Below are positions 1-19,606 of a stretch of DNA of 26,966 nt, piece by piece (the stretch's first letter is position 1; every line of letters begins with the position of its first letter). The notes below the pieces were generated by a model that did not search any database, was not told where the DNA came from, and worked only from the letters and a program-made list of their open reading frames with translations. Source of the stretch: Streptomyces albus subsp. albus (lineage in GTDB: Bacteria > Actinomycetota > Actinomycetes > Streptomycetales > Streptomycetaceae); assembly GCF_000719865.1 (NCBI RefSeq), contig NZ_JOID01000044.1, positions 1 through 26,966 of the forward strand, in the 5' to 3' direction. The position numbers and the translations under genes are program-made.

Positions 1-300
1 GGGTACCACATCGCTGCGCGATGTGCAAGCGCAGCGGTTCGCTTCGCTCACCGCGCCCTCGCTTCGCGAGGGCGGTCCCCTCCGCTGCGCTTCGGGGACC
101 GGTGGGGCCGGGCGCAGCGCGCCCGGCTGGCCGCGCATCGCGCGGCCGTGGCTGGCGGGGGTGTCCGGTGCAGTTAATTGGGCCTCCAGTAAGAGAGTTG
201 GGAGTGCTTCGCACTCCTGGGCGGGTCCGCTGCGCTCCCCCGCCTGACGGTCCTTCCGGCTGCGCCTCCAGAACCGTTGGGGCCCGCTGACGCGGGCCGG
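1..300. other. Telomere of a linear Streptomyces replicon (palindrome cluster)
   Basis: The stretch is a run of perfect inverted repeats with tiny loops. Stems are at 7-13/19-25 (loop CTGCG), 54-62/66-74 (loop TTC), 73-80/94-101, 107-115/119-127 (loop AGC), 129-136/140-147 (loop ATC) and 201-207/211-217 (loop TTC), with another near 282-299. The opening GGGTACCACATCGCTGCGCG matches, from memory, the archetypal Streptomyces telomere starting in the right half of palindrome I, so about ten outermost bases (CCCGCGGAGC) appear missing. In the family these foldback hairpins at the 3' overhang are the site of end patching by Tap/Tpg terminal proteins. No gene is credible here. Confidence 0.93.
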
Positions 301-439
301 GCTGGCTACAAGGGGTGGGGGTCTCTCGTTCGTGCCGGGTTCTGGTGCGTGCGTGCCTCGCATTGATGCAGCATGTAGTGTTGGCGAAAATGTGGGACCC
401 TCTCAACTGCCCAGAAATCTTCCCTCAATTCCGAGAGGA

Positions 440-1155
440 ATGACCGTGGATGGCGGTCAATACGAACCTAAGCGCGTGCCTGCGGTCGAGGCTGGCGCCC
501 TGGCGGCCGCTCTGGAAGCCAGCGTGGCCGCCAGGGCGCGGAGCGAGGTGGTCGAGCTGGACGGGGTGGCGCCGTCCTCTCTGGGCGCGCAGTTCGCGGA
601 CGGCTGGGACGAAGGCGTTGCGGCGGTGAGCGAGGCTCTGGTGGGCATCGTGGACCGGGACGGGGTCGGCGTGGAGGGCTGGTCGGCCGAGACTGCTGAG
701 TTGGCCACGCATATCGCGGATTGCGCGCTGGGGGACGGAGTACCAGACGGTGGGCACCAACGCCGGTTGCGGCTGTTCGCCCTTCTCCAGGCCCAGGGCG
801 ACGTCAGCCGACGTGAACGGGCTGCTCTGGTGCGGCTGGAGGCGTTCGTCCGGGAGGCCGTGCTGTCGCGTCGGACCCGAGCACCACGGTGCGGTGGCGG
901 GTGCTGGAGGCGCTGGACGAAGCCGGCGGTCTGGGCACTGCGCGGATGGTGGAGATGTCCGGTAGTGACGTCATCCCCTGCACACGCGAGGCCGGGCACT
1001 ACGACCCGGACGACCTGCTGGGGTTCAAGCGCAGGAAGTCGGACGGGATGCCCGGCGGGGCGTATCTCGCAGGCGGGTCGCTCTGGGGCGACGCCAGAGC
1101 GGCCTGCACGCAGCACGCGGGTCTGAAAACTACAAGAATTAGGCGTCGGAAATGA
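440..1155 (+). pseudogene. Telomere-adjacent hypothetical gene, frameshifted
   Basis: The reading frame from ATG 440 (GAGAGGA just upstream, tight spacing; frame open back to GTG 332) encodes a plausible acidic helical protein up to about residue 143 (base ~868). The sense then jumps to frame 1, giving DPSTTVRWRVLEALDEAGG and a segment rich in GHYDPDDLLGFKRRK, ending at TGA 1153-1155. One indel near 865-871 explains it. The second part could hold a small winged-helix-like segment, but I recognise no domain. Its stop codon directly abuts the helicase ATG at 1156, so the two were probably translationally coupled. From memory, a hypothetical gene sits in the same place ahead of the helicase at S. 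coelicolor telomeres. Function unknown. Confidence 0.6.
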
Positions 1156-3822: not shown

Positions 3823-3843
3823 CCGCCGTGGACGGTGTGTCGT

Positions 3844-4407
3844 TCAGCGGACCGTGTTCTCGGTGCGGATCATCCGGCGCAGGCTGGTGCGGGCAGCAGT
3901 CAGGTCGTCTTCGAGGGCGGTGATGCGGGCGCGGAGCGTGGCGTTCTGCGAGGCGGCTTCCTCTAGCCGACGAGTGAGGTCCTGGTTCAGGGCGTTCAGC
4001 TGGTCTGCTCTGGTTGCTGTGTCGGGGGCGTGGAGGGCGTCGAGTTGCTGGCCGAGTTGGTGGCGCAGGGCTGCCTGGAGCCGGTCGCGTTCGTCGCGGA
4101 GTTCTTTGATTTCTTGCCGGGCAATTTCGAGTTCGGTGCGCAGGCTGAGGTGGGAGGGCGGGCTTGCCGTGGCAGGTGGCGGGGTGCTGTGGGCTTGGCG
4201 TGTTTGGGCTGCCTCGATGTGCTCGCGTACGCCGGGGGCGTAGGTGAGCCAGGTGGAGACGTGGGCGGCGCGGGCGACTGCGGCGAAGGTGAGCGGCTTT
4301 CCCTGTTTCTCGAGTGTGGCGAGGGCGGTGAGGACTCGGGCTCGTTTGTCGAGGCTGTGACGGTGTCTGGCTTCGGCGAGGGGGGCGGGGTTACCGCGGG
4401 GGTTCAT
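3844..4407 (-). CDS. DUF6262 / TnpC-like transposition accessory protein
   Basis: This 187-residue basic protein has an N-terminal segment (RARVLTALATLEKQGKPLTF followed by AAVARAAHVS) that looks like a small HTH, and then a long heptad-rich coiled coil (about residues 85-180). That architecture is what DUF6262/TnpC-like proteins of Tn554-type elements show; TnpC of Tn554 modulates transposition frequency and orientation. Its ATG (4407-4405) overlaps the TGA of the upstream recombinase (4406-4404) as ATGA, so it is translationally coupled as third gene of the trio. The frame is intact. It happens to share frame with the 5' part of the broken recombinase, so naive ORF calling fuses them into a false 1022-residue protein. 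Confidence 0.82.
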   Translation of the reverse strand: MNPRGNPAPLAEARHRHSLDKRARVLTALATLEKQGKPLTFAAVARAAHVSTWLTYAPGVREHIEAAQTRQAHSTPPPATASPPSHLSLRTELEIARQEIKELRDERDRLQAALRHQLGQQLDALHAPDTATRADQLNALNQDLTRRLEEAASQNATLRARITALEDDLTAARTSLRRMIRTENTVR

Positions 4408-6897
4408 TGCGGGTCTTTCGGCTGGGTGGTGGTGAGGGGCAGGAGTGTGTGGTTGTGGCCTGCTCGTGCTTTGCGCAGCACGGTGCTGGCTTCTTCGATC
4501 TGGGCGCGTCCGGAGGCGGGGAGGGACACCAGGTGTGTGTTCATGCGGTCGATGACGCGCTGGTAGGCGGTGATTTGTGCGGTGAGGGCGGTGGTGACGA
4601 ACTCGGCTGCGCCCATGGCGAGTGCGGTTTCGCGGTCTGCTCGTAGTTCGTTGATGTGGTGCTCGATGGCGGGCAGGTAGGAGGGGTCGGGGCGGTAGAA
4701 GCCGCAGTCGGCGCATTGGAAGCGGATGGGGCAGGCCTGGCCGCCGGCTTTGACGTTCGACGGCTCGGTGCAGCCGCCGTAGGGGACGGCGACGGTGCGC
4801 ATCTCGTAGGCCGTGCTCGAGCTGGGGCTGGGGTGGCCGTGCTGGTCGAGGACGTGTGCTGAGTTTGGCCACGGCGTCGCTTTTCCGTTTGAGGGAGACG
4901 GTGTAGTAGCGCTGGGTCATGGCGATGGATTTGTGGTCCATCAGCTCGCGCAGCACGTCGACGGGGGTGCCGGCGTCTGCGTGGCGCTGGGCGTAGGAGT
5001 GGCGGAAGGCGTAGGGGTAGATCAGGGACCGGTCGAAGAGCAGGCGTTGTCCCCTTGAGTCGATGCCCTCGGCGTGGAGCGGGGGCAGGGCGTCTGCCCA
5101 GAGCCTGAGGGCGTCGCTGAGGTAGGTGCTGGAGATGTAGGGGGCGTCGCTCAGGGCGGTGAGGGAGGGAAAGAGGTATCGGTCCCCCTTGGCGGGAAGA
5201 TGCAGCTGGTCGCGGCAGGCTTGCCAGGTTCGGATGGCGTCGGCGGTGGAGGTTGTGATCGGCAGACGCCTGCGGTGGCGTTTCCTCTTGTGGTTGTCCC
5301 AGATCAGGGTGGGCTGGCCGTTGTGGATCTCCAGGCAGTCACGGGCCAGGGAGACGATCTCGAGCGGGCGGCGCCCGGTGTCTCGCAGGATGATGTACAT
5401 CGTGCGGTACAGCAGTTGCCGGGCGTCGGGAGCGATATCGCGGCAGCCGTAGGTGTTTCCGGTGCCCAGGGTGTCGAGGTGGGCGTCCAGTTGCCGGATG
5501 ACGGGTTCGGGGATGGCCTTGCCGATGAAGTCCTCATTGGGTTCCTCCACGGAGATGACGTGCTCGACGGGCACGCGGGTGAAGGTGCCGACCAGGTCGT
5601 CGAGGGTGCCGCAGCGGCGGCCGTAGGCGATGAGCTGGAAGAAGGCCCCCAGCAGGCTGCGTCGGAAGGAGGAGGAGTAGGGGGTGCCGTCTCGTTTTCG
5701 TGCGGCACGGAAAGCGTCGACGGCCAAGGTGGCATCGGCGAACGTCAGGGCGGCGGGATCGTCACCGGCGTCGGCGCGCTGGGCGAGTGCCGTGGAGGCG
5801 ATGGTCGTCGCGTGGAAAGTACGCTTGAAGTCTTCCGTGGTGGGTCGGGCGGTGGTCACCCAATGACGTAGCGCCTGGCGCAGCCAGGGCTGGCGCACTG
5901 CGCGGAGATCGACGCGGCCGGGCAGCTGCCGGCGCTTGCCGGAGGCGCTGTGGCGCAGCCCGAGGACGCGCAGATCGATGACGTCCTGGTCGATGAGGGC
6001 GATCCCGGAGAACTCGCTGTATCCGGCGCGGACGGCTGACTGCAGGTTCTCCAGCGTGCGGACGGCCGCCTGATGCGGCTTGGTGAGCCGGGCCGTGTTG
6101 GTGGCGTCCAGAAGGGTCTCGGCTGTGGTGAGGTGGCTGATCACGCCGCGGATCCAGTGAGGTTCCAGGGCACGTACCCAGTGGTCCATCTGCTGCACGG
6201 CGTACAGCACTTCCCAGCGCAGCAGCTCGGGCAGCGGGGCGAGATGGAACTGGTGCGCCAGCAGATACAGCGGCTGCCCCAGCGCCCACTGGGCGGCAGG
6301 GACGGGGGCGGTGCTGGAGCGGCAGTCTGCCCTCCAGGCACGCCAGTGATAGTTGCACAGTCCGCGGGAGTTCGTGGATGCGCCGGCACAGTCGTCGACC
6401 GTGCAGACGGGTACGTCGGTGAAGGGGGTAGCGCGCTCACGGAGCCAGCGTTCGAACGTGCCCCTCGCCTTGTGGTATTTGCGGGAGTTGTGGTGAGCCG
6501 CGCACAGGCCTCCCGCCACCTGGGGTCGTACGCACCGCACGCTGTCCCGGGTGAGCGTGCACGGACCGACGACCGTCAACGGCAGGGATCTGGAACGGGC
6601 AGGGGTGAAAGTGGCGGCGAACTCTTCCCGCGGCAGACCGCTCTTTCTGCTCTGGTCCGAGCAGTAGGTACAGAACGTCTCCTGAGCGCGCACGATCATC
6701 TCGCAGCGGCGGGTGCGGCACCGGGAGGACGAGGTGCGCGGGTTGTCCAGGTCTCCGCTGAACAACCATCTGGCGCTGTCCCACTCCCCCGGCCGCCACG
6801 CGGGATCGATGTGGTCACGCAGCCACGTCTCCCACGACGTCTTCGCGGCCTTCGCCGGTGCGGAACGTGCGACGGCAGGCGCACCGGCCGTGCTCAC
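4404..6897 (-). pseudogene. TnpB-like large tyrosine recombinase, frameshifted near its 3' end
   Basis: Chosen start is GTG 6897 with a strong GGGAGGG five bases upstream and a GTGA overlap with the previous gene's stop; ATG 6912 in the same frame is possible. The N-terminal part has several Cys/His pairs (CTYC, CAAHH, CNYHW) suggesting zinc knuckles. The catalytic core is visible: RDTGRRPLEI (first Arg), AFRHSYAQRH (His-x-x-Arg) and MTQRYYTVS (nucleophilic Tyr). Just after this, near 4846-4858, the frame breaks. The true tail lies in another frame at about 4404-4850 and carries FQCADCGFYRPDPSYLPA, a conserved end of these recombinases. A net +1 (or -2) indel is enough. Full length would be about 830 residues. 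The active-site domain is upstream of the break, so partial activity cannot be excluded. Confidence 0.82.
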
Positions 6898-8053
6898 TGG
6901 CCCTCCCGCCATGCCTGGGCCCGGTCGACAGCCGCCCGGGTCTCGGACTCATCGACGTGGCGGTAGCGGTCCATGGACAGCGGTGAGGCATGACCCAGCA
7001 GCTTTTGCACCACGTCCCGGTCCACTCCCCCACGCAGCCAGTGGGTGGCCGCGGAGTGGCGCAGCATGTGCGGCCGCGCCGGATGCCCGGCACGGCGGGC
7101 CAGACGATCGAAGACGTTCTTGGCGTTCGGGTAGGTCACGGCCCTGCCCAGCGGGGGCCGGAAGAGGTTCACGAACACCATGTCTGTCCCGGCCGCGGCG
7201 GCCACCGGGGTTCGTTCGTGCTGGTAGTCGGTGTAGAAGGCGACGATGTCGGGGGTGACGGGGAGACAGCGGGAGTGTCTGGACTTGGCCAGGGTCCGGT
7301 TCGGGTTGTCGGTGCGGCGCCGCACATGAAGATGAGGACCCTCCACCGGGCAGCCAAGGGAGCGTGACGAGGCCAGGAAGTGCAGATCCTCCTGGCGCAA
7401 GCCCAGGGCCTCCCCGATCCGTAGACCGGTCGCGGCGAGCAGCGCGATGAGAAAACGGTCCCGCGCCCGGGGCGTATCCGCGATCATGCGGCGGATCTGC
7501 TGCGGGGACAGGCCCTCGTAGCCGGGCTCGCTGACCTGGAAACGGAAAGCCGACACCTGGACCTTGCGCCACTGGCCACGCTCGCCTGCGTCGTAACCGG
7601 CCGGCAAGAACCGCAGGAACTTCGGCTCCGGCAAAAGACCGGCCGTCTGCGCGGGGACCCAGCCATGGAGCGCGCCGAAGCGCAGGAAGTCCGTGACCGC
7701 CGTCATCACCGCGTTCGCCGTACCCTGCGAACGGTAGCGGGGCGCAGCCGTGGTCGGGGAGCGGCGGCCGCGGGCCGGCAGCGGTGTGCTGACCAGCCAC
7801 TGCTGCAGCCCGGACAGCGCCAGGAAACTCGGACGCGACCACTCGATACGGCGCTGCGTGCAGTAGTTCAGATAGAGGGCGAGACGGCCCGCGTAGATCC
7901 GTTCCGTGTTCGGCGAGCGGCCCTTGCTACGCAATCCGGCTAAAACGCACACGCCTCGGCATGCAGGGCGTAGGTCCGTGCCTCGGCCACCACCCACCGC
8001 TCCACACCGGGCGCTGGGGAGATCGCACGCTCAGCTACATAGCTCTGCTCCAC
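6894..8053 (-). pseudogene. TnpA-like tyrosine recombinase, N-terminal frameshift
   Basis: Most of the gene is intact from 7997 down: a SAM-like core-binding domain (GRSPNTERIYAGRLALYLNY), then a catalytic domain with ATGLRIGEAL (Arg), MLRHSAATHWLRGG (His-x-x-Arg), LLGHAS (His) and MDRYRHV (Tyr). The annotated-looking start at 7997 gives an implausible N-terminus. In the neighbouring frame upstream a family-like N-terminus reads WVVAEARTYALHAEACAF and stops at a TAG beside a T4 run (A4 on the plus strand, 7942-7945). One extra T would join it to LAGLRSKGRS. GTG 8053 is a possible start. It is first of the Tn554-like trio, and the IS256 element sits about 75 bases upstream, where its promoter would be. 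Confidence 0.72.
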
Positions 8054-8129
8054 CCACCAAACAGACCAAACCCCCCAGGGGGCCGGTGCCTGTTCCAGAC
8101 AGCGACCACACGACCAGGTGGGAACGGGC

Positions 8130-8150
8130 CTGTCAAACGAGCGGTGTAAC
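8130..8150 (+). repeat. IS256 terminal inverted repeat, left
   Basis: CTGTCAAACGAGCGGTGTAAC; aligned to the reverse complement of 9480-9500 it matches at 17 of 21 positions. It lies 15 bases beyond the transposase stop. Confidence 0.75.
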
Positions 8151-8164
8151 CAAGGTGGTTGGGG

Positions 8165-9456
8165 TTACTGGCGGGCTGCGGAGAGTCGGCCGTCGAAGGT
8201 GATGTCGAATGCGTTCAGGGCGGTTTTCCAGCGCATGGTCCAGCGGGCTTGGCCCTTGCCGGTGGGATCCAGGCTCATGATGGCCATGTAGACGCACTTC
8301 AGGGCGGCGGTCTCGTTCGGGAAGTGCCCCCGGGCCTTGACCGCCCGGCGGATCCTGGCGTTCACGGACTCGATCGCGTTGGTGGTGCAGACGATGCGGC
8401 GGATCTCGGTGTCGAAGCGGAGGAAGGGGGTGAACTCTTCCCACGCGTGCTCCCAGAGCCGGACGATCGCGGGGTACTTCCTGCCCCAGGCGTCGGCGAA
8501 CTCGGCGAACCGCTCGAGTGCGGCCTCTTTGGTCGGTGCGGTGTAGACGGGCTTGAGGACGCGGGCGATTTTGTCCCAGTCCTGGCGGGCGGCATAGCGG
8601 AAGGAGTTCCGCAGGAGGTGGACCACGCAGGTCTGCACGATCGTGCGGGGCCAGACGGTCTCGACCGCGTCGGGCAGGCCCTTGAGGCCGTCACAGACGA
8701 GCATGAGGACGTCATTCACACCGCGGTTCTTGATCTCGGTGAGGATGTGCAGCCAGTGCTTGGCGCCCTCGCTGCCGTCGCCTGCCCACAGGCCCAGGAT
8801 GTCCCGTCGGCCTTCCGCTGTGACGGCCAGGGCCATGTAGATCGGCCGGTTGGCCACGGCGCCGTCGCGGATCTTCACGTGGATTCGTCGATGAAGACGA
8901 CCGGGTAGACAGCGTCGAGGGGCCGGTTCTGCCACTCCGCCATGCCGTCGAGGACCTTGTCGGTGATGGTGGAGATGGTCTGCTTGGAGACCTCGGCCCC
9001 GTAGACCTCGGCGAGGTGGGCCTGGACCTCGCCGGTGGTCAGGCCCTTCGCGGACAGGGAGATCACCATCTCGTCGACGCCGGACAGGCGCTTCCGCCGC
9101 TTGCGCACGATCTTCGGCTCGAAGGTGCTGCCGCGGCCGCGGGGCACGGATATCTCCACCGGTCCGACGTCGGTGAGTACGGTCTTGCCGCGGGTGCCGT
9201 TGCGGGAGTTGCCTCCGTTCTTGCCGGCCGGATCGTGCTTGTCGTAGCCGAGGTGGTCGGTGATCTCGCCCTCGAGTGCCGACTCCAGCAGGCGCTTGGT
9301 CAGCTGCTGCAGCAGACCGCCCTCGCCCGTTAGCTGCAGGCCCTCGGCCTGGGCCCGGCCCACCAGTTCGTCGATGAGCTGGTCGTCCACCGCCCTGGAC
9401 GGCTGCGGCTCGGGCGTCTCGACGGACTGGGTCTCGGTCACGTTCTCACTGGTCAT
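8165..9456 (-). pseudogene. IS256-family DDE transposase, frameshifted at the first catalytic Asp
   Basis: The 5' part (9456 to about 8880) encodes the conserved N-terminal region (EGEITDHLGYDKHDPAGKNG, ISVPRGRGSTFEPKIV) and reaches VVFIDE, where the family reads FIDAIHVK. The frame then shifts by one base near 8885-8892. The 3' part (to 8165) carries HVKIRDGAVANRPIY, the second Asp region MLVCDGLKGLPDAVE, and the C-terminal Glu region TTNAIESVNARIRRAVKARG. All catalytic residues exist but lie in two frames, so no full transposase is made unless a frameshift occurs. IS256 members do not normally use programmed frameshifting, so I call it inactivated. Intact length would be about 430 residues, normal for the family. 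Confidence 0.9.
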
Positions 9457-9479
9457 CGATGCATCTTCCTTGATCAGGA

Positions 9480-9500
9480 GTTACACCGAACGTCTTACAG
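9480..9500 (-). repeat. IS256 terminal inverted repeat, right
   Basis: Read on the minus strand this is CTGTAAGACGTTCGGTGTAAC, the partner of 8130-8150. It lies 24 bases upstream of the transposase start and may include the outward end of its promoter. Confidence 0.75.
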
Positions 9501-9731
9501 TCCCCGCCCGCGGCTCGGAAACCAACAGAAGGCAGGGTCGATGAGCGACTGGCCACCTCACGGTGCCCGTACCTTGAAGCGGCGGACGATGTCTTGACCG
9601 AACGGGTCACCACGACCTTGTGGGCTTGTGAAACCGGCTGCGGTGAACCTGTGGTCATGGCCTGGGCAGAGGTTTCGCGCTGGGCTACTGGGACCGCCCG
9701 CCTCCCGGCAGGTGGGCACAGGCTGACCTCT
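9501..9731. other. Short gap between IS256 and the sigma-factor block, with an open remnant frame
   Basis: On the plus strand an open frame runs in from the IS end (about 9519) to 9812 with a non-random composition (LTERVTTTLWACETGCGEP), but it has no credible start of its own and overlaps the minus-strand gene at 9732. It may be the tail of a gene cut by the insertion. No counterpart is visible on the other side of the element. Confidence 0.25.
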
Positions 9732-10724
9732 TTACACTTCGGCATGAACCACGGACTCGGACCCCTCGGCCGCGATCACCAGGACTCCTTCCTCTTCGTC
9801 AGACGGCAGTGAGGCACGGCGCACACGGGACTCCCACTGTGTCGGCCACAAGGTCGTGTGGTCCCACAGGATTCCTTCGAGAAGGACGCCGTCAAGTTTG
9901 GCGTTGGTGAGATCTGCTCCGACGAAGTCGTTGCTGGCCTGTTCGACTTCCGCGGCAACTCGGGCCAAAGCATCGGCCTCCTCACAGCCGTGGGTCAGAT
10001 CGTCGATGAGGTCTTGGGCGACCGCGTCGACACCGAACAGATAGGCGCGTCCGATCCTTTCGAGGCCGGTGACCGGGGGAGCCAGTTCTTGATCGAGAAA
10101 TTCTCGGATGCCGTGAAGTTCGTTGGCGAGACGCTCGGCCGGGTCGGCGAGGGCGAACTCCACGGCCTCGAGGTAGCCCAGACCGGTCAGCGCGGCCTGG
10201 GGCCGGTGAGGTTCGGGCAGCCGGGACATTCCCTCAAGGTGCTCCCGAAGCTGTTGCACCGCGGCCTCGGCACGGCCCAGCGGTTGTGTGCTGTCGCCCA
10301 GGAGGCCGTATAGGTCCTGGACAATGCGGACAGCGGTACGCATGGCCTGGGAAAGGTCAAAAGGCCAGTAGTTGTGTACCAGGCGTAGGGTCTCTTCGCG
10401 GTATTTCACGCGGATCGCCGCCGGGCGGCGGGCCAGTGGCCCTCGCGCCGCCAACCGCGCCTGGAGCGCGGAATGGCGTTGCGCCTGAGCAGCGCTGGTG
10501 TCACGGGACAGACGGTGGCTGACAGCGCTCCCCGTGCAGCGGTGGGTCGCTGCAAGGAGGCGGTCCAACGCAAGGTCTGGGGTGAGCAGCTCAGGCGGCC
10601 CGCCATGGGCGTTGAGGCGGTCGGCTACGGCGACGCCCAGTTTCCTGTGGACGGTTGTCAGCAGGGCTTCGATGTCGTCGTGGTCCATGTTCCCTTCCGC
10701 TGCGCGGGGATCGCTGCCCATCAC
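9732..10724 (-). CDS. Uncharacterised protein coupled to an ECF sigma factor, pentapeptide-like C-terminus
   Basis: A 330-residue soluble, mostly helical protein with no signal peptide or membrane segment. The last 90 residues contain NDFVGADLTNAKLDGVLLEG, a short pentapeptide-like run, followed by a W-rich motif (ILWDHTTLWPTQWESRVRRA). Similar tails (GADL repeats, then WP..W) are common on Streptomyces proteins encoded with regulators, but I know no assigned function. The start GTG 10724 or ATG 10721 follows a strong AGGAGG at 10730-10735 and overlaps the sigma-factor stop (GTGA), so the two are one translationally coupled unit. The N-terminal region (LTPDLALDRLLAATHRCTG) is unrecognised. 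It could be a sigma partner or a regulated effector; the sequence does not decide. Confidence 0.75.
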   Translation of the reverse strand: MMGSDPRAAEGNMDHDDIEALLTTVHRKLGVAVADRLNAHGGPPELLTPDLALDRLLAATHRCTGSAVSHRLSRDTSAAQAQRHSALQARLAARGPLARRPAAIRVKYREETLRLVHNYWPFDLSQAMRTAVRIVQDLYGLLGDSTQPLGRAEAAVQQLREHLEGMSRLPEPHRPQAALTGLGYLEAVEFALADPAERLANELHGIREFLDQELAPPVTGLERIGRAYLFGVDAVAQDLIDDLTHGCEEADALARVAAEVEQASNDFVGADLTNAKLDGVLLEGILWDHTTLWPTQWESRVRRASLPSDEEEGVLVIAAEGSESVVHAEV

Positions 10725-11299
10725 GCCTTCCTCCTTTCGTGGGTGAACCGGCCTTCCAGCCGTAGGCCTTGCTTCAGCGCGGCTCTCGCACGGGCAAGGT
10801 TCTGGCGCACGGCTACCTGTGTGGTCCCCATCGCGCGTGCGCTTTCCTCTGTGGTGAAGCCGTCCAGATGCCAGGCCATCGCCGCGCGCTGTTTGGCCGG
10901 CAGTTGGAGCAGTAAGGAGATCACCTGGCGTTCTTCCTCCCCCAGCTCGGCGGCGTGGGCCGGGGTTTGCCAGCGCAGGCTCGGCTGCGGCTCGGGCAGT
11001 TCCGCGCAGGTCTCTTCAAGTTTCACTTGCTGGCTTACCCAGGACCTCCAGGCCACCGTACGCAGCCATGCGCGGGGGTAGGTGATCGTGACGCCCGGAG
11101 CACACATCTGAATGAAAGCGTCCTGCGCGGCGTCCTGAGCCTCCGTCCATGACGCACCGTGCAGAAGCAGGAAGCGGACCAGGCGCGGATACTGCTCGTC
11201 ATGCAGGGCCCCGGCGAGCTCGATGCCCGGTAACGGGGTGACGGCCTTCTCCAAAGGCCCAGCAAGGCGAACGTCAACGGCGTCTTCCACGGTCACCAC
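10721..11299 (-). CDS. ECF-type RNA polymerase sigma factor
   Basis: Region 2 is visible in DEQYPRLVRFLLLHGASWTE and DAAQDAFIQM, with the region 2.4-type YPRAWLRTVAWRSW. Region 4 is LQLPAKQRAAMAWHLDGFTT followed by an HTH (EESARAMGTTQVAVRQNLARARAAL). There is no sigma-1 or sigma-3 region, so it is a minimal ECF sigma. I chose GTG 11299 because GGGAG stands just upstream; ATG 11335 in frame has no ribosome binding site and overlaps the upstream gene by 62 bases rather than 26. An in-frame TTA leucine codon (11233-11231) lies near the N-terminus, so translation should depend on the bldA tRNA. No classical anti-sigma gene is adjacent; candidate partners are the small membrane protein upstream and the 330-residue protein downstream. 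Confidence 0.88.
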   Translation of the reverse strand: MVTVEDAVDVRLAGPLEKAVTPLPGIELAGALHDEQYPRLVRFLLLHGASWTEAQDAAQDAFIQMCAPGVTITYPRAWLRTVAWRSWVSQQVKLEETCAELPEPQPSLRWQTPAHAAELGEEERQVISLLLQLPAKQRAAMAWHLDGFTTEESARAMGTTQVAVRQNLARARAALKQGLRLEGRFTHERRKA

Positions 11300-11516
11300 C
11301 CCAGCTCCCGCCGGCTGGCTCCGACTCGCGTCCATCGCAGTGGGGGGCGAGTATGGCGGCCCGCCCCGTGAGGAAACGTACCCTCTCGGTCTGCGCTGCT
11401 TCGCTGATCCGCACTCTCTCCACAGAGACGGTCAACCGCCGCTGAGCGATCTTCACTATGGCATTGACGACGCTGACGGTCACGGTCACCACCGCTGCGA
11501 TGATCACAGGCTCCAT
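11274..11516 (-). CDS. Small membrane-anchored protein upstream of the sigma factor
   Basis: An 80-residue protein with one N-terminal hydrophobic helix (VIIAAVVTVTVSVVNAIV, about residues 4-21), then a charged helical stretch (AQRRLTVSVERVRISEAAQT). An AAAGGTG ribosome binding site lies about six bases before ATG 11516. Its 3' end overlaps the sigma-factor gene, so the two are likely cotranslated. A short membrane protein next to an ECF sigma recalls an anti-sigma or sensor anchor, but I see no zinc-binding HxxxCxxC anti-sigma motif, so that role is only inference. It resembles in build the membrane protein at 12399-12722. Confidence 0.6.
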   Translation of the reverse strand: MEPVIIAAVVTVTVSVVNAIVKIAQRRLTVSVERVRISEAAQTERVRFLTGRAAILAPHCDGRESEPAGGSWGGDRGRRR

Positions 11517-11871
11517 GCCGCACCTTTCCCTTCCCGCCCGGGCCTCCAGCCCGGGCTCGCGCACCCCGCGCACCCCAACAGTGCTGCTTTGCACGGCAGT
11601 TGTGACATCTGCCTGGTCACGGGCCATGTCCTGCCATAGAAAGCGGCCACGACACAGGGGGTTCAGGCGGACTCCACGACTGCGTCACCATTCCGTGCTC
11701 ATCGCTCAGGCATCCGACGCCGGCTGTGCATGCCCGCGCTACGGATGGCCTGTCGCCCGCATGGCCGCAGCCGGAGGGCACCGGCATCCCGGCACGCGAC
11801 CGGCACACCCCGGCACCGGCCCGGGTAGGGGTCCACGGATGACGCTCGTGCAGGGCGAGCCTCCGGAGTGG
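11517..11871. other. 355-base intergenic region with a self-complementary hairpin
   Basis: No gene is credible on either strand. GCCCGGGC occurs twice (11536-11543 and 11549-11556) around CTCCA, forming a hairpin 20 bases before the small membrane-protein start on the minus strand, where it would sit in that gene's leader. The region probably also holds the promoter of the sigma-factor unit, but I see no clear -35/-10 pair. Confidence 0.4.
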
Positions 11872-12402
11872 TCAAACTGGCGTCTCCCTCAGCTCGGCTC
11901 TCCGAAGTGGCTGGAGCCATGGGCTGGACAGCGCTGTGGGAGCCGCTGCGCGCTTGGCGGGCTGCTCAGCCCGCGCACTGCGGTAGGCAGCCTGCTTGCA
12001 CGTGTCGCTGCAGTACTTGCGCGTACGCCCGCGGGCCTTTTGCACGAAGGGCGGCGCAGTACAGCCGACACGCTGGCACCGATGGACAGGTACCTCTTTG
12101 ACGCCCTCCCGGACCAGGGCCGAGTGCTGCGGACCCGTCCGGCTCATCAGCTCCTCACGCAGTTGGGGACCGAATTCCGAGTCCGGCAGTCTGATCAGCA
12201 GGCTCCTGATGAGCTCTTGCAAGCCCTCTACCGTCCAACCGAACTGGCGGGCCATCTGAACGAGTGGAGCCCCGTGCAGGTAGTCGAGCAGGAGCCGCCG
12301 TTCGGAGTCCCGCAACACCTTGCGCAGGGCCCGCCCGAGGACGTCATCGCCGATCCGGCGGCTGACGGGATCCTTGTCCGGCCAGTACTGTTCTCGCCTC
12401 AC
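11872..12402 (-). CDS. HTH plus CCCC zinc-finger DNA-binding protein
   Basis: A 176-residue protein starting at GTG 12402, preceded by GGAGGAG at good spacing and overlapping the upstream stop as GTGA. The middle (RRLLLDYLHGAPLVQMARQF, then GWTVEGLQELIRSLLIRL) looks like a sigma region-4-like or MarR-like HTH. The C-terminal part carries four cysteines, C-x4-C (CQRVGC) and C-x3-C (CSDTC), in a GRTRKYCSDTCKQAAYRSA context that is common in actinobacterial zinc-ribbon proteins. A DNA- or RNA-binding regulator is the natural reading. It is second in a two-gene unit with the membrane protein before it and lies 355 bases upstream of the sigma-factor unit in the same orientation, so the two units may form one regulon. 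Confidence 0.7.
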   Translation of the reverse strand: MRREQYWPDKDPVSRRIGDDVLGRALRKVLRDSERRLLLDYLHGAPLVQMARQFGWTVEGLQELIRSLLIRLPDSEFGPQLREELMSRTGPQHSALVREGVKEVPVHRCQRVGCTAPPFVQKARGRTRKYCSDTCKQAAYRSARAEQPAKRAAAPTALSSPWLQPLRRAELRETPV

Positions 12403-12722
12403 TGCGCTCCTCCCCCGCCCGGCTCCCCAGCTGCCGTACTGTCCGGCGACGTCGCACCGCCGGAGAGCGCGGGATCGGCCACCGGCCCCTGCGGGCTTGG
12501 CCCCGGTCCCGCACTGAGGCCAGCCTGCCGGACTCCCACTCGCAGCGACTTGAAGAGCCCCAGAAGCGTCCGCCCGCTGCTGTCCAGCATGACCGGCAGA
12601 TCTTCGAGCCGCGCACGGCGGATAGCCAACGCAGCCGGAACGGCGTGGGCGGCAAGCGCGGCGAGACAGACCAGGGCCGGCAACCCCACTACCGCCACAA
12701 CCGCCCACGGGACGTCAGACAT
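12399..12722 (-). CDS. Small single-pass membrane protein, first gene of the HTH/zinc-finger unit
   Basis: A 107-residue protein with an N-terminal hydrophobic segment (PWAVVAVVGLPALVCLAALA, residues 5-24, continuing AAHAVPAALAI) and a basic, then Pro/Gly-rich cytoplasmic tail ending GEPGGGG. I start it at ATG 12722, with AAGGAG eight bases upstream; the frame is open to 12797 but that extension runs through a hairpin. It overlaps the next gene by four bases. The pattern of a small membrane protein coupled to a DNA-binding protein repeats at 11274-11516 plus the sigma factor. No family recognised. Confidence 0.65.
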   Translation of the reverse strand: MSDVPWAVVAVVGLPALVCLAALAAHAVPAALAIRRARLEDLPVMLDSSGRTLLGLFKSLRVGVRQAGLSAGPGPSPQGPVADPALSGGATSPDSTAAGEPGGGGAQ

Positions 12723-12749
12723 CAGCTTCGCTCCTTCGAGACCGAAAAC

Positions 12750-12788
12750 GCCGATGGCCCGACGCGTCTTCGCGTCGGGGCCATCGGC
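12750..12788 (-). promoter_or_regulatory. Long hairpin in the leader of the membrane-protein/HTH unit
   Basis: GCCGATGGCCC-GACGCG (12750-12766) pairs with CGCGTC-GGGGCCATCGGC (12771-12788) across a TCTT loop: 17 pairs with one bulged base. On the minus strand it is followed by CGTTTTCGG and ends 27 bases before the ATG at 12722. It could be an attenuator or the second half of a tandem terminator with 12799-12824. Confidence 0.55.
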
Positions 12789-12798
12789 ATGAGGCATG

Positions 12799-12824
12799 AA
12801 AAAACCCCGCCGGAGAGGGCGGGG
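12799..12824 (-). terminator. Rho-independent terminator (minus strand)
   Basis: On the minus strand GGGGCGGG... reads as stem CCCCGCC/GGCGGGG (12805-12811 with 12818-12824, loop of six) followed by TTTTTT (12804-12799). This is the clearest intrinsic terminator in the window, yet no convincing minus-strand gene lies immediately upstream of it, so it may end a lost gene or a leader transcript. Confidence 0.75.
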
Positions 12825-13812
12825 CCGTCTGGTGCAGGCACATGTGTGCCACCACCAAGGCGAGCATACCCACGTACAGCCCCCGCAAGGCCGGATTCGG
12901 TATCGAGACCACGTTTCCGCAGCTCAGAGACTGGAGAAACAGAAAGGCTCGCCAGCAGGACAAGAGAAACATTTCGTAACAGCGTCTACCGTCGCCGACC
13001 GCGAGAGCCCCTCTCCGTCCTCCACCGGGTATCTCGCCGAGACCCGACTGCGCGGCCCGGCACATGCCGCGGCAGCCAGTGAACGCACCTCCCGCACACA
13101 GCTCTTGGCCACCCTCGTCGCCGCCGTAGACATCGAGCCCGAGCAGGTAGCCGCTGGGCTGAACCACTACCGTCGCCTGCCCGCCGTACGTGCGCCGGGC
13201 CCACGCCGCGCGGACGTGGCACAGTGAACCGCTGCCCTGCCAGGTCACAAGACGAGCCCCATCCCCCCGGCGGAACCGGAATACCGGCGGGCCCCAGCCC
13301 CGAACCCGCCGGCCATGTCCCGGCCCCAAAAGCGGGCGGGTCGCCCAAGCACCGCCGCATACCAACGATCACCGGAAATGCACAGCGCGCAATGCAGACG
13401 ACACGACCTGATCACCACGGCCCTTACCTGGCAAACCTGCAGATCAGACCCCCAGCCCAGGACCAGCACCCACGCTCGCCACGGCTCCTGAGGCACCAGC
13501 ACCGTCTGACCATAGCCACACAGCAAACTGATCAACCCAGACCAGAACATCCGCTCCTGATCACAAACACTGATCCTGGACGGCAGGTCGAACGAACGGG
13601 CGTCGACCACCACCCACCGCACCGGTCACCGGAGAAACAGCACGCTCCACCACCAAGTCGGCATCCACGTGGCAAACACAACCACCACCCGCAGCGGGGC
13701 ATACCGCGCTTCGGCCGACACCATGCCCGCAGGCGACAACCAGCACAAACATCCCTCATCCATGACACTCCCCGAGATAAGCCCGGCCGGGCCCCAGCGC
13801 CGAGGAGTAACA
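12825..13812. other. About 1 kb without a confident gene
   Basis: On the plus strand, the end of the open frame to 13227 has a plausible helical stretch (RTQLLATLVAAVDIEPEQVA, then AGLNHYRR) but its upstream part overlaps the terminator and looks random, so at most it is the tail of a degraded gene. On the minus strand, 13622-13245 is open for 125 codons with a low arginine, high tryptophan composition (DQERMFWSGLISLLCGYGQT) and lower local GC than its surroundings; I cannot assign it. No RNA gene seen. Confidence 0.3.
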
Positions 13813-13833
13813 GCGCCCGCCACGGGCGGGCGC
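13813..13833. terminator. Perfect 9-bp hairpin downstream of the 69-residue membrane protein
   Basis: GCGCCCGCC-ACG-GGCGGGCGC. It lies 40 bases beyond the stop at 13874 on the minus strand. There is only a weak T stretch afterwards, as usual for Streptomyces terminators. Confidence 0.55.
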
Positions 13834-13873
13834 CATGCTCTCGCCTACAGGAGCGGGACAAAGCATCCTCGGT

Positions 13874-14083
13874 TCACAGCACCGCGAGGACGAAGGTCAG
13901 CAGCGCCAGGGACACGGTGGCGCTTCCCGCGAAGGCCACGGCACCGCGCAGCAGAGCGGTGGCGTAGGTGGCTCCGTCGATACGGGCGAGCAGACCGGCC
14001 GCTGCTCCTACGAGCGTGCAGAAGAGACCGACGACGGCCAGAAGCAGGGCCAGGAGAATCAGGTGGATGGATGAGGTGTTCAT
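13874..14083 (-). CDS. 69-residue two-helix membrane protein, divergent from the NACHT gene
   Basis: Starting at ATG 14083 (GGGAAGAAGG upstream), the protein is almost entirely two hydrophobic helices: about residues 6-30 (IHLILLALLLAVVGLFCTLV) and 45-68 (AVAFAGSATVSLALLTFVLA), joined by a short loop with LLARIDGATYATALLRG. No signal-peptidase site stands out, so it should stay in the membrane with both ends on one side. It is transcribed away from the HTH-NACHT-LRR gene with 123 bases between starts, so both may share a control region. No family recognised. A membrane effector, a holin-like partner or an unrelated small protein are all possible. Confidence 0.65.
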   Translation of the reverse strand: MNTSSIHLILLALLLAVVGLFCTLVGAAAGLLARIDGATYATALLRGAVAFAGSATVSLALLTFVLAVL

Positions 14084-14138
14084 GCCTTCTTCCCAGGAGA
14101 ACCGACGACGGGGACTTCGGCGAATTTCGCGGTTTTGG

Positions 14139-14163
14139 TGTTCACCGGGGTTCAGGGCGAACA
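14139..14163. promoter_or_regulatory. Candidate operator between the divergent pair
   Basis: TGTTC (14139-14143) and GAACA (14159-14163) are inverted copies separated by 15 bases, and GTTCA also repeats directly at 14140 and 14150. The site lies between the two starts, 44 bases before the NACHT ATG, where an XRE-type HTH could autoregulate. Short motifs like this arise by chance; low confidence. Confidence 0.25.
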
Positions 14164-14206
14164 AAGATGAACGAAGACGGTCGACTGGGAGACGGAGAAG
14201 CAGGAC

Positions 14207-17122
14207 ATGGGGGACGTGGACGAGGATCCGCTGGCGGAACTCGCGCTACGGCTGCGCACCCTCAGGGCGCAGCGGGGTCTGCAGATGGGTGGGTTGCAGC
14301 AGCGGACCGGGCTGGGGCGGACCACGGTCAGCCAGGCGCTGAACGGCCAAGTGGTGCCCTCCGAGACCACGCTGGTGGCCCTGGCAAAGGCGCTGGGCAC
14401 GGATGTGGAACCATTGCTGGCCTTACGCCACGCCGCCGCCCGCGTACCGCAGGTGCGCCAGGGCTTGCCAAGGAAAGTTACCCGCAGGTCGGCGCGGCCC
14501 AGAGTGCAGCCTTCTTTCGCAGAGCGGTACCTCAGCTACGTGACGGAACGGCATTCCCAGCTGACCGTCGTAGGGCTGGACCTGAGCCGGCCGGAGCGTG
14601 CGCGCTGGCCGCTGGACGCGGCGTACTTGAGCTTGGAACTGGCAGAGCGGCCGGAAGACTGGCCTGCAGGCGGCGAGGAATCGAACCGGCCATCCGTCGT
14701 GGTGAAGCGTGCCGAGCACGCATTGGCCAACTGTCGACGCGTTCTCCTGCGAGGGCTCGCCGGCAGCGGAAAGACAACACTGCTGCAGTGGCTGGCTGTC
14801 GCCACGGCGCGCGATGAACTGCCGGAGGAACTTGCGGACTGGCGGGGGCTCATTCCGTTCATCCTGCCGCTGCGGACGCTGGTGAGGCGTGGCCCCCTTC
14901 CGGAGCCGCACGACTTCCTGTCTGCGGTCAGCACCCCCCTGGCCGCCTCACAGCCTGAAGGCTGGGCCGATGACGTACTCGCCAGAGGCGGCGCACTCGT
15001 CCTGGTCGACGGCATCGACGAGGTTCCTCAAGAGCACCGAGGCGCCACCCGGGACTGGCTCGAGCGGCTCCTGGCGACCTACGGGGACGCACGCTTCGTG
15101 GTCACCACGCGCCCGTCCGCTGTACCAGAAGGCTGGCTGGCCTCATCACGCTTCACCGAACTGTCGGTGCGGCCCATGAGTGCCGCTGACATCGGAGTCT
15201 TCGTCGGCCGGTGGCATACCGCCGCCCGGCACAGTGCAGCGACCGACGCCGAACGGTCACAGCTGGATGATCTCGAAGCAGCGCTCCAGGTCACTGTGCG
15301 TGCTCAGCGTGACCTGGCGCAGTTGTCCAGCACGCCCCTGATGTGCGCGCTCATCTGCGCGCTGCACCGGGACCGCCGCGGCCATCTGCCTCACAGCCGT
15401 ATGGAGTTGTATGAGGCAGCACTGTCGATGCTGCTCGTGCGGCGCGACCTCGAGCGCAGCATCGATGTCCCGGAAGGCATTCAGCTCACCGAACACCAAA
15501 GTGTCCAGCTACTGCAGCGTCTGGCCTACTGGCTCATCCGCAACCGCCAGACGGAGATGGAACGGGCCACCGCGACGGCCCTGGTCGACGACGCGCTGCC
15601 GGCCATGCAGGCCGTGGCCGAGCAAGGCACAGCCGCCCGGATCCTGACGCACCTGGTCGGCCGCAGCGGGCTCCTGCGCCAGCCCACCATGGACACCATC
15701 GACTTCGTCCACCGCACTTTCCAGGACTACCTCGGGGCCAAAGCCGCCATCGAAGCCCACGACTTCCCCCTACTGGTCAACAATGCACACGACGACCAGT
15801 GGGAAGACGTCGTACGCATGGCCGTCGCCCACGCCCGCCCAACCGAGAGCGCTGATCTACTCCGCCGCCTCGTCGAACGCGGTGATACCGAGGGCGAACA
15901 CAGGAGCAGACTCCACCTCCTGGCGGCCGCCAGCCTGCAGTACGCCACCGAAATCGAGCCCGCCACTCGCCGCCTGGTCGAACAGCGTGCACGTGTCCTG
16001 ATGCCTCCCCGTTCCCGGGAAGAGGCGGAGGAACTTGCCGCACTCGGGCCGGGCATCCTGGATCTGCTACCGGGGCCGGAAGGCCTGGAAGCTGATGAAG
16101 TGGGCCCCGTGGTCAAGACTGCTGCTGCCATCGGCGGCGACCATGCATACGCCTTCCTCCGCCGCTTCGCGCAGTCGCTGCCTCCCGACTCGGCACCCTA
16201 CGACCTAGTCGAGGGCTGGGAACACTTCAGCGCTGACGAATACGTCCGCAACATCCTGCTCTCCTTCCATGACCGGAACCGTCTCACTCTGACGGTACAC
16301 ACCCGTGATCAACGCGAAGCACTTCGGCTTCTGAAACCCATCACCAGCATCACCTATCGGAAAGCCTTCACGGCGGACGAAATAATCGAGCACCTCTCAG
16401 CCGGGCACACCCAAGCACTGCGGATCTACGAGGGCCAACGGCTCACAGGATTGAAATTCATCCGCAAACTCTGCGCTCTGAAAGAACTTGCCCTCTCAGA
16501 CTGCACCGAGCTCACGCACATTGAAGACCTTGCAGGGCTCCCGCTGTCAGACTTGAGCCTTATGCACTTGCCGACCGACTTCTCCTTCAACGCACTGAAC
16601 TCTCTGCCCGACCTCACGGATCTTTCTCTCTACACCCGCCTGCCCTGGGAGAGCCTGGTGGGTCTGCCAGCACCGGAGAGCCTCACCTCGCTGCACCTGG
16701 GCGGCTGGATTGGCACACGTCTGGCTGGCATCTCCAAGTGGCAGCAACTGCAAGACCTGGTGATCAATACTGCCCCTGAAAACGGAGAGTGGCAAGAAAT
16801 CGCGACACTCACCCATCTGGAAGAACTATGCATATCGGAGTACGACCTTAATCACGCTGTTCCCATGCTCAGCGTTACCTATCTCCGACTCCTTCCGGAG
16901 TCCGACCCACAACTAGACCTGGTGCCGGAACTCTTCCCCAACCTCGAACGCTTCTTCATCAACTGCCGAGCAGCGCAGTCCGACACCATCGACATCGCCC
17001 CCTTGAGCCGGATCAAGAGACTCCAGATATCCATCAGTTACGCGAACAACGTCACCGGCCTTGAGCTATTCCCTCCGGACACAGTCAAGCTGTACCCGCG
17101 ACCACGAACAACAGACACCTGA
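14207..17122 (+). CDS. HTH-NACHT-LRR protein (bacterial NLR-like STAND NTPase)
   Basis: This 971-residue protein has three parts. Residues 10-72 form an XRE-type HTH (LAELALRLRTLRAQRGL, GRTTVSQALNG). Residues about 160-480 are a NACHT-type STAND NTPase: Walker A GLAGSGKT 183-190, Walker B ALVLVDGIDEVP 263-274 with the doubled acidic residues typical of NACHT, and VVTTRP 298-303 as sensor. After helical domains, residues about 740-965 carry irregular leucine-rich repeats (LKELALSDCTEL, LTDLSLYTRL, LTSLHLGGW). NACHT/bNLR proteins with C-terminal sensors and N-terminal effectors act in anti-phage defence; here the N-terminal module is DNA-binding rather than a nuclease or pore. A single TTA codon (14423-14425, Leu73) sits between HTH and NACHT, implying bldA control. 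The frame is clean throughout. Autorepression or transcriptional signalling are inferences. Confidence 0.9.
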   Translation: MGDVDEDPLAELALRLRTLRAQRGLQMGGLQQRTGLGRTTVSQALNGQVVPSETTLVALAKALGTDVEPLLALRHAAARVPQVRQGLPRKVTRRSARPRVQPSFAERYLSYVTERHSQLTVVGLDLSRPERARWPLDAAYLSLELAERPEDWPAGGEESNRPSVVVKRAEHALANCRRVLLRGLAGSGKTTLLQWLAVATARDELPEELADWRGLIPFILPLRTLVRRGPLPEPHDFLSAVSTPLAASQPEGWADDVLARGGALVLVDGIDEVPQEHRGATRDWLERLLATYGDARFVVTTRPSAVPEGWLASSRFTELSVRPMSAADIGVFVGRWHTAARHSAATDAERSQLDDLEAALQVTVRAQRDLAQLSSTPLMCALICALHRDRRGHLPHSRMELYEAALSMLLVRRDLERSIDVPEGIQLTEHQSVQLLQRLAYWLIRNRQTEMERATATALVDDALPAMQAVAEQGTAARILTHLVGRSGLLRQPTMDTIDFVHRTFQDYLGAKAAIEAHDFPLLVNNAHDDQWEDVVRMAVAHARPTESADLLRRLVERGDTEGEHRSRLHLLAAASLQYATEIEPATRRLVEQRARVLMPPRSREEAEELAALGPGILDLLPGPEGLEADEVGPVVKTAAAIGGDHAYAFLRRFAQSLPPDSAPYDLVEGWEHFSADEYVRNILLSFHDRNRLTLTVHTRDQREALRLLKPITSITYRKAFTADEIIEHLSAGHTQALRIYEGQRLTGLKFIRKLCALKELALSDCTELTHIEDLAGLPLSDLSLMHLPTDFSFNALNSLPDLTDLSLYTRLPWESLVGLPAPESLTSLHLGGWIGTRLAGISKWQQLQDLVINTAPENGEWQEIATLTHLEELCISEYDLNHAVPMLSVTYLRLLPESDPQLDLVPELFPNLERFFINCRAAQSDTIDIAPLSRIKRLQISISYANNVTGLELFPPDTVKLYPRPRTTDT

Positions 17123-18786: not shown

Positions 18787-19188
18787 TCACCACTTGTGTG
18801 ATCTGATAGCGAATCGACCAGATCCTCCGTTGACGTTCGTCCGATCATCGGGGGCTACCGTGAATATTTTGCTGCGGTAATTCGTTACACCATACAGCTT
18901 GACGCTGGACGACGATTTTCGATTCCATACGGAGCGGGGGATCGAGAAGGAACACCGAATGTTCCCGCCGGCCCAGTTCGGGTCCTTCACGTTCCACTGG
19001 CACTTCTTGCCACGGCCGTTGGCCTTGGAGTACACGCAGAGGCTGCCGTTGGAGCAGGACCACGCCTGTACCGACTCGGAGTCGGGTGTGGAAGCCGAAG
19101 CTGTCGATACTGGATTTGCCAGCGTGCTGAGGGTAGCTATTGCGACAGCGACCCCCATACTGGAACTGAGTTTGAGCGAATTTCTCAT
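18787..19188 (-). CDS. Secreted peptidase inhibitor I36-like protein
   Basis: The start at ATG 19188 is set by AGGAGGG seven bases upstream; the frame is open farther but without a ribosome binding site. The 133-residue product has a Sec signal peptide (basic MRNSLKL, hydrophobic core VAVAIATLSTLA, cleavage after ASA near residue 33). The mature part has four cysteines in the order WSC-x5-C, KKC, IRC and an aromatic/Gly-rich beta-crystallin-like pattern (SLCVYSKANGRGKKCQW, NWAGGNIRCSF) typical of Streptomyces family I36 inhibitors such as SMI. It probably acts outside the cell on a metallopeptidase, or is one of the many I36-fold proteins of unknown target. Confidence 0.75.
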   Translation of the reverse strand: MRNSLKLSSSMGVAVAIATLSTLANPVSTASASTPDSESVQAWSCSNGSLCVYSKANGRGKKCQWNVKDPNWAGGNIRCSFSIPRSVWNRKSSSSVKLYGVTNYRSKIFTVAPDDRTNVNGGSGRFAIRSHKW

Positions 19189-19606
19189 GTCGCACCCTCC
19201 TGAAGGTAGCGCCTTTCGCCCTGTTGGTGCAGGCACATGCAGTCCCTGAGCGCACGGTGGAACTCTGGAATTTGACGCATTTTAGCAGCTGCAGATGCCG
19301 GCCTGCGTCTCATGTTGGATTGCGCCGAGAGATGAGCCGGCTTCTCAGCTCCGCTCGATTCAGATCATCATCATGGGCGTGAGCGTGCCAGTCACTCATT
19401 TCGGTGCCAGCCGAAACGAACCTTCCTGGCACGACAGCGCGGGCCCCCACGCCATCCCGGGGCCCGCGCGGCCGCTTGAGCCTCGCTGATCATTCGGCCT
19501 GTTCGACCCTATGGGTGACCGACTGTGCGGCTGACAATCATTTCGGGAGTACGGGCCTGTGACCATTTGTCACGGGGCAGCGATGAGAAGCCGACAGGGG
19601 GCAAAG
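19189..19606. other. Intergenic region with an orphan hairpin
   Basis: No gene is supported. A perfect 11-bp stem GCGCGGGCCCC (19437-19447) pairs with GGGGCCCGCGC (19459-19469). It looks like a factor-independent terminator but no gene ends near it on either strand, so it may mark a deleted neighbour. The rest presumably carries the promoters of the I36 gene and the regulator. Confidence 0.45.

Follow-up and report, generated by a model that had tools for sequence, protein, structure and literature searches.

A divergent HTH-NACHT-LRR and membrane-hairpin gene pair in Streptomyces albus, a candidate two-gene sensor switch

We analysed a 26,966-nucleotide stretch of Streptomyces albus subsp. 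albus DNA (contig NZ_JOID01000044.1 of assembly GCF_000719865.1; hereafter the window). It contains a gene for a 971-aa protein with an XRE-type helix-turn-helix (HTH) domain, a NACHT NTPase domain and a leucine-rich repeat (LRR) domain and, divergent from it, a gene for a 69-aa two-helix membrane protein (hairpin). The hairpin was found to accompany the HTH across many loci with different sensors. In the comparison of these loci, the HTH, the intergenic element and the hairpin form the constant part of a general unit, with the sensor being variable. The gene pair had been pointed out in a preliminary description made from the letters alone, which was correct as to the coordinates, strands and lengths of both genes, the N-terminal XRE HTH, the exact extent of the shared 123-base control region and the possible inverted repeat within it.

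The linkage was examined among relatives of the 971-aa protein, which we term NLR-like (resembling nucleotide-binding, leucine-rich repeat proteins). In the best 30 loci of the search with this protein, a hairpin gene (expect value, E, at most 1e-16) was divergently adjacent in 15 of the 17 HTH-bearing loci, the window included, and in none of the 13 HTH-less ones. The co-occurrence of the small protein with HTH-NACHT genes, put forward in the preliminary description, was thus found. An overlapping second count of 30 loci gave the hairpin with 5/5 HTH loci and 0/25 HTH-less loci, the gene start having been misjudged in one of the 25 (L045). When an HTH-AAA-TPR protein served as query, the hairpin was present at all nine loci with a strong HTH match (E < 1e-20; query's own locus included), and the 21 other loci gave two hairpin matches, one distant (566 bp) and one weak (E 7e-3). 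Both the NLR and the HTH-AAA-TPR searches had many more matches than the best 30 loci examined. At one locus (L280), HTH and NACHT lay in separate frames. NACHT was rejected as the linked feature, as its HTH-less relatives were without a hairpin in the loci examined. A chance neighbourhood of an NLR gene and a small open reading frame, for which no supporting point was found, is refuted by these association counts and by the substitution pattern of the hairpin gene given below, and its probability is practically negligible.

The range of partners was assessed over 106 hairpin loci, comprising all 26 non-window places of the first search and 80 from a genus-wide search to about E 9e-12; eight listed places within that E range were omitted (duplicate copies situated at other ends of replicons, plus a small number of mainly partial matches). 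A divergent XRE HTH was present within 500 bp at 70 of these loci (20/26 of the first set and 50/80 of the second), as judged with an HTH profile built from the 20 HTH loci among the first 26. By template comparison, the bodies of the 70 XRE partners were AAA_16-TPR-like (39), NACHT-LRR (16), NB-ARC-TPR (4), of other types (3) or unassigned (8). In the preliminary description, HTH-NACHT plus hairpin had been taken as the system. The pairing is real, but this definition was too narrow, since NACHT-LRR partners accounted for 16 of the 106 hairpin loci. The 36 loci without XRE HTH matched GAF/SpoIIE/GGDEF templates (17, weakly in the case of L189), an AAA-TPR template (1) or none (18); two of the 36 (L198 and L199) possibly do not belong to the family, and the loci with no partner include degenerate copies (L066, L089) and a contig end (L086). 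The hairpin is also paired with GAF/PAS/SpoIIE/GGDEF proteins in a sister class (L080, L083, L135, L150 and others). Another N-terminal domain, whole or in part, was common to 15 of the 17 GAF/SpoIIE/GGDEF partners. It has no Pfam name and is HTH-like by resemblance only (EINQLV..VRSWLDE..VSVR.LH.RLT..); Pfam detected no HTH in L080 and L083. Sixteen GAF-class loci shared a different palindromic element (58.6 bits compared to 17.1-19.3 in shuffles). At L182, a gene judged transposase-like by eye separates the hairpin gene from its SpoIIE-type partner.

As for the 971-aa protein, its HTH matched Pfam HTH_31 (E 2.9e-11) with 43.9 bits, above the curated cut-off of 27, and the protein can thus be classed as a candidate XRE-type regulator. 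The NACHT domain was matched with E 9.3e-25, and residues G183, G186, G188, K189, D268, D271 and E272 were invariant in 25/25 aligned sequences, with intact Walker motifs. Pfam LRR matches were sub-threshold only; the profile of 25 relatives matched solved LRR proteins over about residues 719-900 (E 4e-26), and the structure model contained regular strands over about residues 694-963. The NACHT with Walker motifs, the C-terminal LRR and the overall NLR fold together make the protein NLR-like. In five relatives, the N-terminal place of the HTH is taken by NNH1 (four cases) or a trypsin-like domain (one case) according to Pfam. The protein itself gave no Pfam match to NNH1 at E up to 1, HTH_31/HTH_3 being found instead, and it does not belong to the Avs proteins, as its best Avs2 matches had E 0.06 (PADLOC) and E 0.37 with 8.6 bits against a cut-off of 1000 (NCBIfam). 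Coordinates are summarized in Table 1.

Table 1. Features of the gene pair and its intergenic region in the window
Feature	Position	Strand	Basis
XRE HTH-NACHT-LRR (NLR-like) protein, 971 aa	14207..17122	+	Pfam, profile alignment, structure model
XRE-type HTH domain, residues 11-70	14237..14416	+	Pfam HTH_31
NACHT NTPase domain, residues 177-339	14735..15223	+	Pfam; 25-sequence alignment
LRR domain, about residues 694-965	16286..17101	+	profile match, structure model
Two-helix membrane hairpin protein, 69 aa	13874..14083	-	structure model, family alignments, dN/dS
Shared intergenic control region, 123 bp	14084..14206	.	same gap on two linear plasmids
Conserved operator-like element	14139..14184	.	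motif over 71 intergenic regions

The hairpin was modelled as two helices (residues 3-35 and 40-68) joined by a turn at residues 36-39, with a mean predicted local distance difference test score (pLDDT) of 94.8. The ratio of nonsynonymous to synonymous substitution rates (dN/dS) was 0.05-0.37 against eight close relatives and 0.44-0.59 against six distant ones, for which synonymous sites were near saturation. A profile search of the protein collection returned 437 proteins at E <= 1e-3 among 7992 candidates scored. Judged by the low dN/dS and this family of 437 proteins, the 69-aa frame is a real gene. In the best 120 of the 437, no Pfam domain was present in any protein, and the named sources were Streptomyces (two as [Kitasatospora] papulosa), mostly with the annotation 'hypothetical protein'. 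The hairpin itself has no family in Pfam (E up to 1, SLATT included) or PADLOC, and the one NCBIfam match was far below cut-off. The conserved residues cluster at the turn (LARxDGATxPxALxRA) in the family alignments, the first of which omits three of the 26 loci (L066, L085 and L089; degenerate, or short frame not found). The family was detected in 148/392 genomes of the genus, i.e. patchily, in 63/197 genomes of the order sample (60 of them from the same genus) and in 5/296 genomes of the phylum sample (four from the same genus). In 50,697 phage records, tblastn gave no match to the hairpin at E <= 0.01.

The gap between the two genes measures 123 bp on a linear plasmid of Streptomyces sp. 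S465 and on one of NBC_00726, as it does in the window. The inverted repeat TGTTCACC/GGCGAACA, read by eye inside positions 14139-14163 with 7/8 pairs, lies within a conserved palindromic element; the repeat finder run on the DNA did not list it, and it was revealed by locus comparison. Over 71 XRE-class intergenic regions, the 46-bp element reached a mean of 40.4 bits per sequence versus 10.0-10.8 in five shuffled sets, part of this conservation being due to common descent, since the regions come from related loci, some of them almost identical. Its consensus is an imperfect palindrome (16/23 pairs), and it is conserved across partners with different sensors. A degenerate 25-bp core pattern had one exact copy in the own genome, namely at this locus, and two further sites with two and three mismatches; the reversed control gave none. 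Sigma-70-type promoters were sought in positions 13700-14300 and none were found. In the window, a conserved ATG inside the element (AAAGATGAAC, positions 14167-14169) does not share the reading frame of the NLR gene; in L068, the same ATG is the called start of the partner gene.

We propose that the pair acts as a two-gene sensor switch: the HTH would regulate the hairpin gene in response to the sensor, and the hairpin would serve as the output at the membrane; we would give this reading an even chance. At rest, the HTH would occupy the element and both genes would be held low. Upon detection of a ligand by the LRR, an NTP-driven rearrangement or assembly of the NACHT domain would alter DNA binding and the hairpin gene would be turned up. 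The hairpin would then accumulate in the membrane, with its conserved turn probably in the cytoplasm, and would alter membrane permeability or signalling, so that hyphal growth would stop or the compartment would be given up.

Several observations weigh against this switch or against its role in conflict. The HTH region of the 971-aa protein was modelled poorly (pLDDT 38-62). The hairpin had no sequence match among solved structures, and all 16 rows of its fold comparison had E above 2, none of them being reliable. In the window, the palindrome is less perfect than in the family consensus (10/17 versus 16/23 pairs). Two of the 17 HTH-NACHT loci lacked a normal hairpin, with no match in L276 and a weak one (E 2e-3) in L279. 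Intact hairpin genes with the operator had no HTH gene beside them in L128, L168 and L181, and only a short HTH remnant in L127; these four were examined at the locus only, and an HTH may be present elsewhere in their genomes. The sensors of the sister class (GAF/PAS/SpoIIE/GGDEF) point to physiological signals and not to invaders. The LRR of the copy on the S465 plasmid is 91% identical to that of the window and is thus not swapped. Finally, a defence island was not apparent: no PADLOC family (E <= 1e-15) was found in more than one of 145 flanking genes (out of 160 called, at 24 of 26 loci, no control gene set having been run alongside). The preliminary description had suggested that the HTH silences a membrane-damaging effector, which, given the intact hairpins and operators without adjacent HTH, is not the simplest reading. 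At the hairpin's place in L276 and L279, a short stretch with one hydrophobic segment was seen by eye; in L276 (G374:C8), a very short one-helix frame seems to lie there, beside operator-like sequence.

The same orphan hairpins bear on another explanation, according to which the hairpin is not the output but tethers the HTH-sensor protein to the membrane or regulates it negatively. Its cytoplasmic turn would dock the HTH protein, activation would free the HTH, and the operator would only balance the two partners. Such a role would suit the use of a single hairpin family with numerous sensors and with two or more N-terminal types, as well as the clustering of conserved residues at the turn and the persistence of hairpins without adjacent HTH. 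The similarities of hairpin and HTH also correlate between loci with different sensors (rho 0.33, reached by 0/500 permutations), a correlation which cannot separate contact from common descent, the latter alone being able to produce it. On the other hand, the orphan hairpins have nothing nearby to be tethered and, with one exact operator core site in the own genome, there would be no other obvious target for the HTH once freed. We consider a tether unlikely.

The position of the pair within replicons was examined as well. Window positions 1176-8125 and 13785-16158 are collinear with positions 1489-8436 and 8508-10885 of the L203 genome (8.16 Mb, single contig), which carries a second, inverted hairpin copy near its other end. 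The collinearity with the L203 end and this inverted copy make it very probable that a linear chromosome ends close to the start of the window. In all nine plasmid records with a tblastn match, the hairpin was within about 36 kb of the record end, and the four such records that were checked were all linear. The S465 linear plasmid (23 kb) has the same order of helicase, integrases, hairpin (WP_268977319.1) and NACHT protein (WP_268977320.1), its NLR protein being 92% identical to that of the window. Two divergent genes on linear plasmids might also represent a toxin-antitoxin-like addiction pair maintaining telomere-linked DNA and linear plasmids, with the sensor as an accessory. Truncated partners often keep the HTH (10/70 partner frames are shorter than 300 aa, at least L122 being cut by a contig end), and in NBC_01724 the HTH stands alone, as an annotated 69-aa frame. 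Indirectly, the survival of hairpin genes without adjacent HTH speaks against strict addiction, and the large conserved sensor cores are under purifying selection; we hold an addiction pair to be very unlikely.

As for the surroundings, window positions 1-8125 contain an inward ttrA-like helicase with HA domains, followed by two tyrosine recombinases. The next segment of about 5.7 kb (8126-13784) has no counterpart in the collinear stretch of L203 and carries a Mutator-family transposase (8165-9456) and a sigma-70 region 4 protein (10721-11299). A 149-aa protein with a peptidase inhibitor I36 domain (E 1.3e-11) is encoded at 18787-19236 on the minus strand. Genes annotated as an ABC-three component system are located downstream of the cassette on the S465 plasmid (L260). 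The best 25 of the 94 PADLOC families matched near hairpin loci consisted of models for type II restriction-modification, for DruM and Cas7e, and of candidate (PDC) models.

Finally, we compared the sensors of close relatives. In L202, L203 and L206-L209, the HTH, the NACHT and the following helical region are 90-97% identical to those of the window and the LRR halves 40-66%. Synonymous divergence was 0.17-0.35 over codons 1-560 versus 0.59-0.66 over codons 700-971, and L203 and L209 share a common LRR (0.01) on different cores (0.19). Since the synonymous divergence jumps too, the LRRs of these relatives have been exchanged by recombination, and no claim of positive selection on them is made. 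On a linear plasmid of Streptomyces sp. Alt1, the hairpin, the gap and the start of the HTH gene match the window at 82% DNA identity, and the partner body differs, showing a Pfam HTH with weak TPR matches and, by eye, the AAA-TPR type. The LRR swapping and the plasmid-borne spread suggest phages or conjugative elements as the source of the ligand.

Arguments for a role in conflict are the patchy presence, the location at replicon ends and the replaced LRRs. These three features suit conflict genes better than core development, and thus speak against a physiological or developmental Streptomyces switch with no immune role, in which a STAND (signal transduction ATPase with numerous domains) or GAF/PAS sensor would respond to a metabolite, a mating partner or stress and adjust the amount of the small membrane protein. 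Such a switch would agree with the GAF/PAS/SpoIIE/GGDEF partners, with the confinement mostly to one genus and with the lack of recurrent defence neighbours, and we regard it as doubtful. In its broadest form, the two-gene sensor switch might stand for a whole class of alarm switches, in which a fixed output cassette (HTH, operator and membrane-hairpin gene) would accept plug-in sensors (NLR, AAA-TPR, NB-ARC-TPR, GAF/PAS). Its NLR form would recognise invaders via recombining LRRs and spread on the ends of linear chromosomes and plasmids. This generalization is tentative, somewhat short of an even prospect.

In the usual picture of bacterial NLRs, a single polypeptide serves as both receptor and killer. 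In the pair described here, the output end of the receptor would be a DNA-binding domain with one evident target adjacent, so that its signalling could be followed in a laboratory Streptomyces with a simple reporter. If correct, the switch would form a link between the STAND proteins of immunity and those that act as transcription factors, establish a new membrane-hairpin family and demonstrate that repertoires of receptors travel on the ends of linear replicons. In the STAND transcription regulators MalT and AfsR, one protein comprises a domain for DNA binding, the STAND NTPase and sensor repeats, and AfsR controls a small neighbouring gene, afsS. Compared to them, the present protein joins an XRE-type HTH to NACHT-LRR, its candidate target is a membrane hairpin, and related units use GAF/PAS. 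Its closest HTH-less relatives are the Streptomyces NNH1-NACHT-LRR and trypsin-NACHT-LRR proteins, whose core aligns from about residue 95 to the end with 39-42% identity (12 aligned sequences); they have another N-terminus (five examined) and no divergent hairpin gene (0/25 and 0/13 in the two counts).

The gene pair was not found described in the open-licence PubMed Central literature, whose coverage leaves out most subscription journals, nor in the accessible portions of PMC8195603, PMC12169576, PMC13236601, PMC7159879, PMC10907252 and PMC13092281. Related principles are known nevertheless. An ECF (extracytoplasmic function)-like HTH is among the conflict-system effector domains of TRADD-N proteins and, according to the authors, points to a transcriptional response (PMC8195603); adaptor and HTH type are different there, and no hairpin partner is described for these proteins in the accessible part of that source. 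In the LypABC CARD-NLR-like lysis system, overproduction is toxic and transcription is strictly repressed by CdxB (PMC13236601). Unlike in the HTH-NACHT-LRR fusion, this repressor is a separate protein, and lysis involves peptidase domains. Small two-helix membrane proteins of the 2TM SLATT type are predicted pore-forming effectors of conflict systems (PMC7159879); the hairpin is equally small and two-helix, but has no Pfam SLATT match and is tied to HTH proteins. Finally, the 'bona fide bacterial NLRs' (PMC12169576) resemble the 971-aa protein in the central NACHT, the C-terminal LRR and the NLR-like fold. The latter differs in having an N-terminal XRE HTH where bNACHT25, for example, has a DNase domain and in being accompanied by a divergent membrane-protein gene of its own, and its antiphage role is putative.

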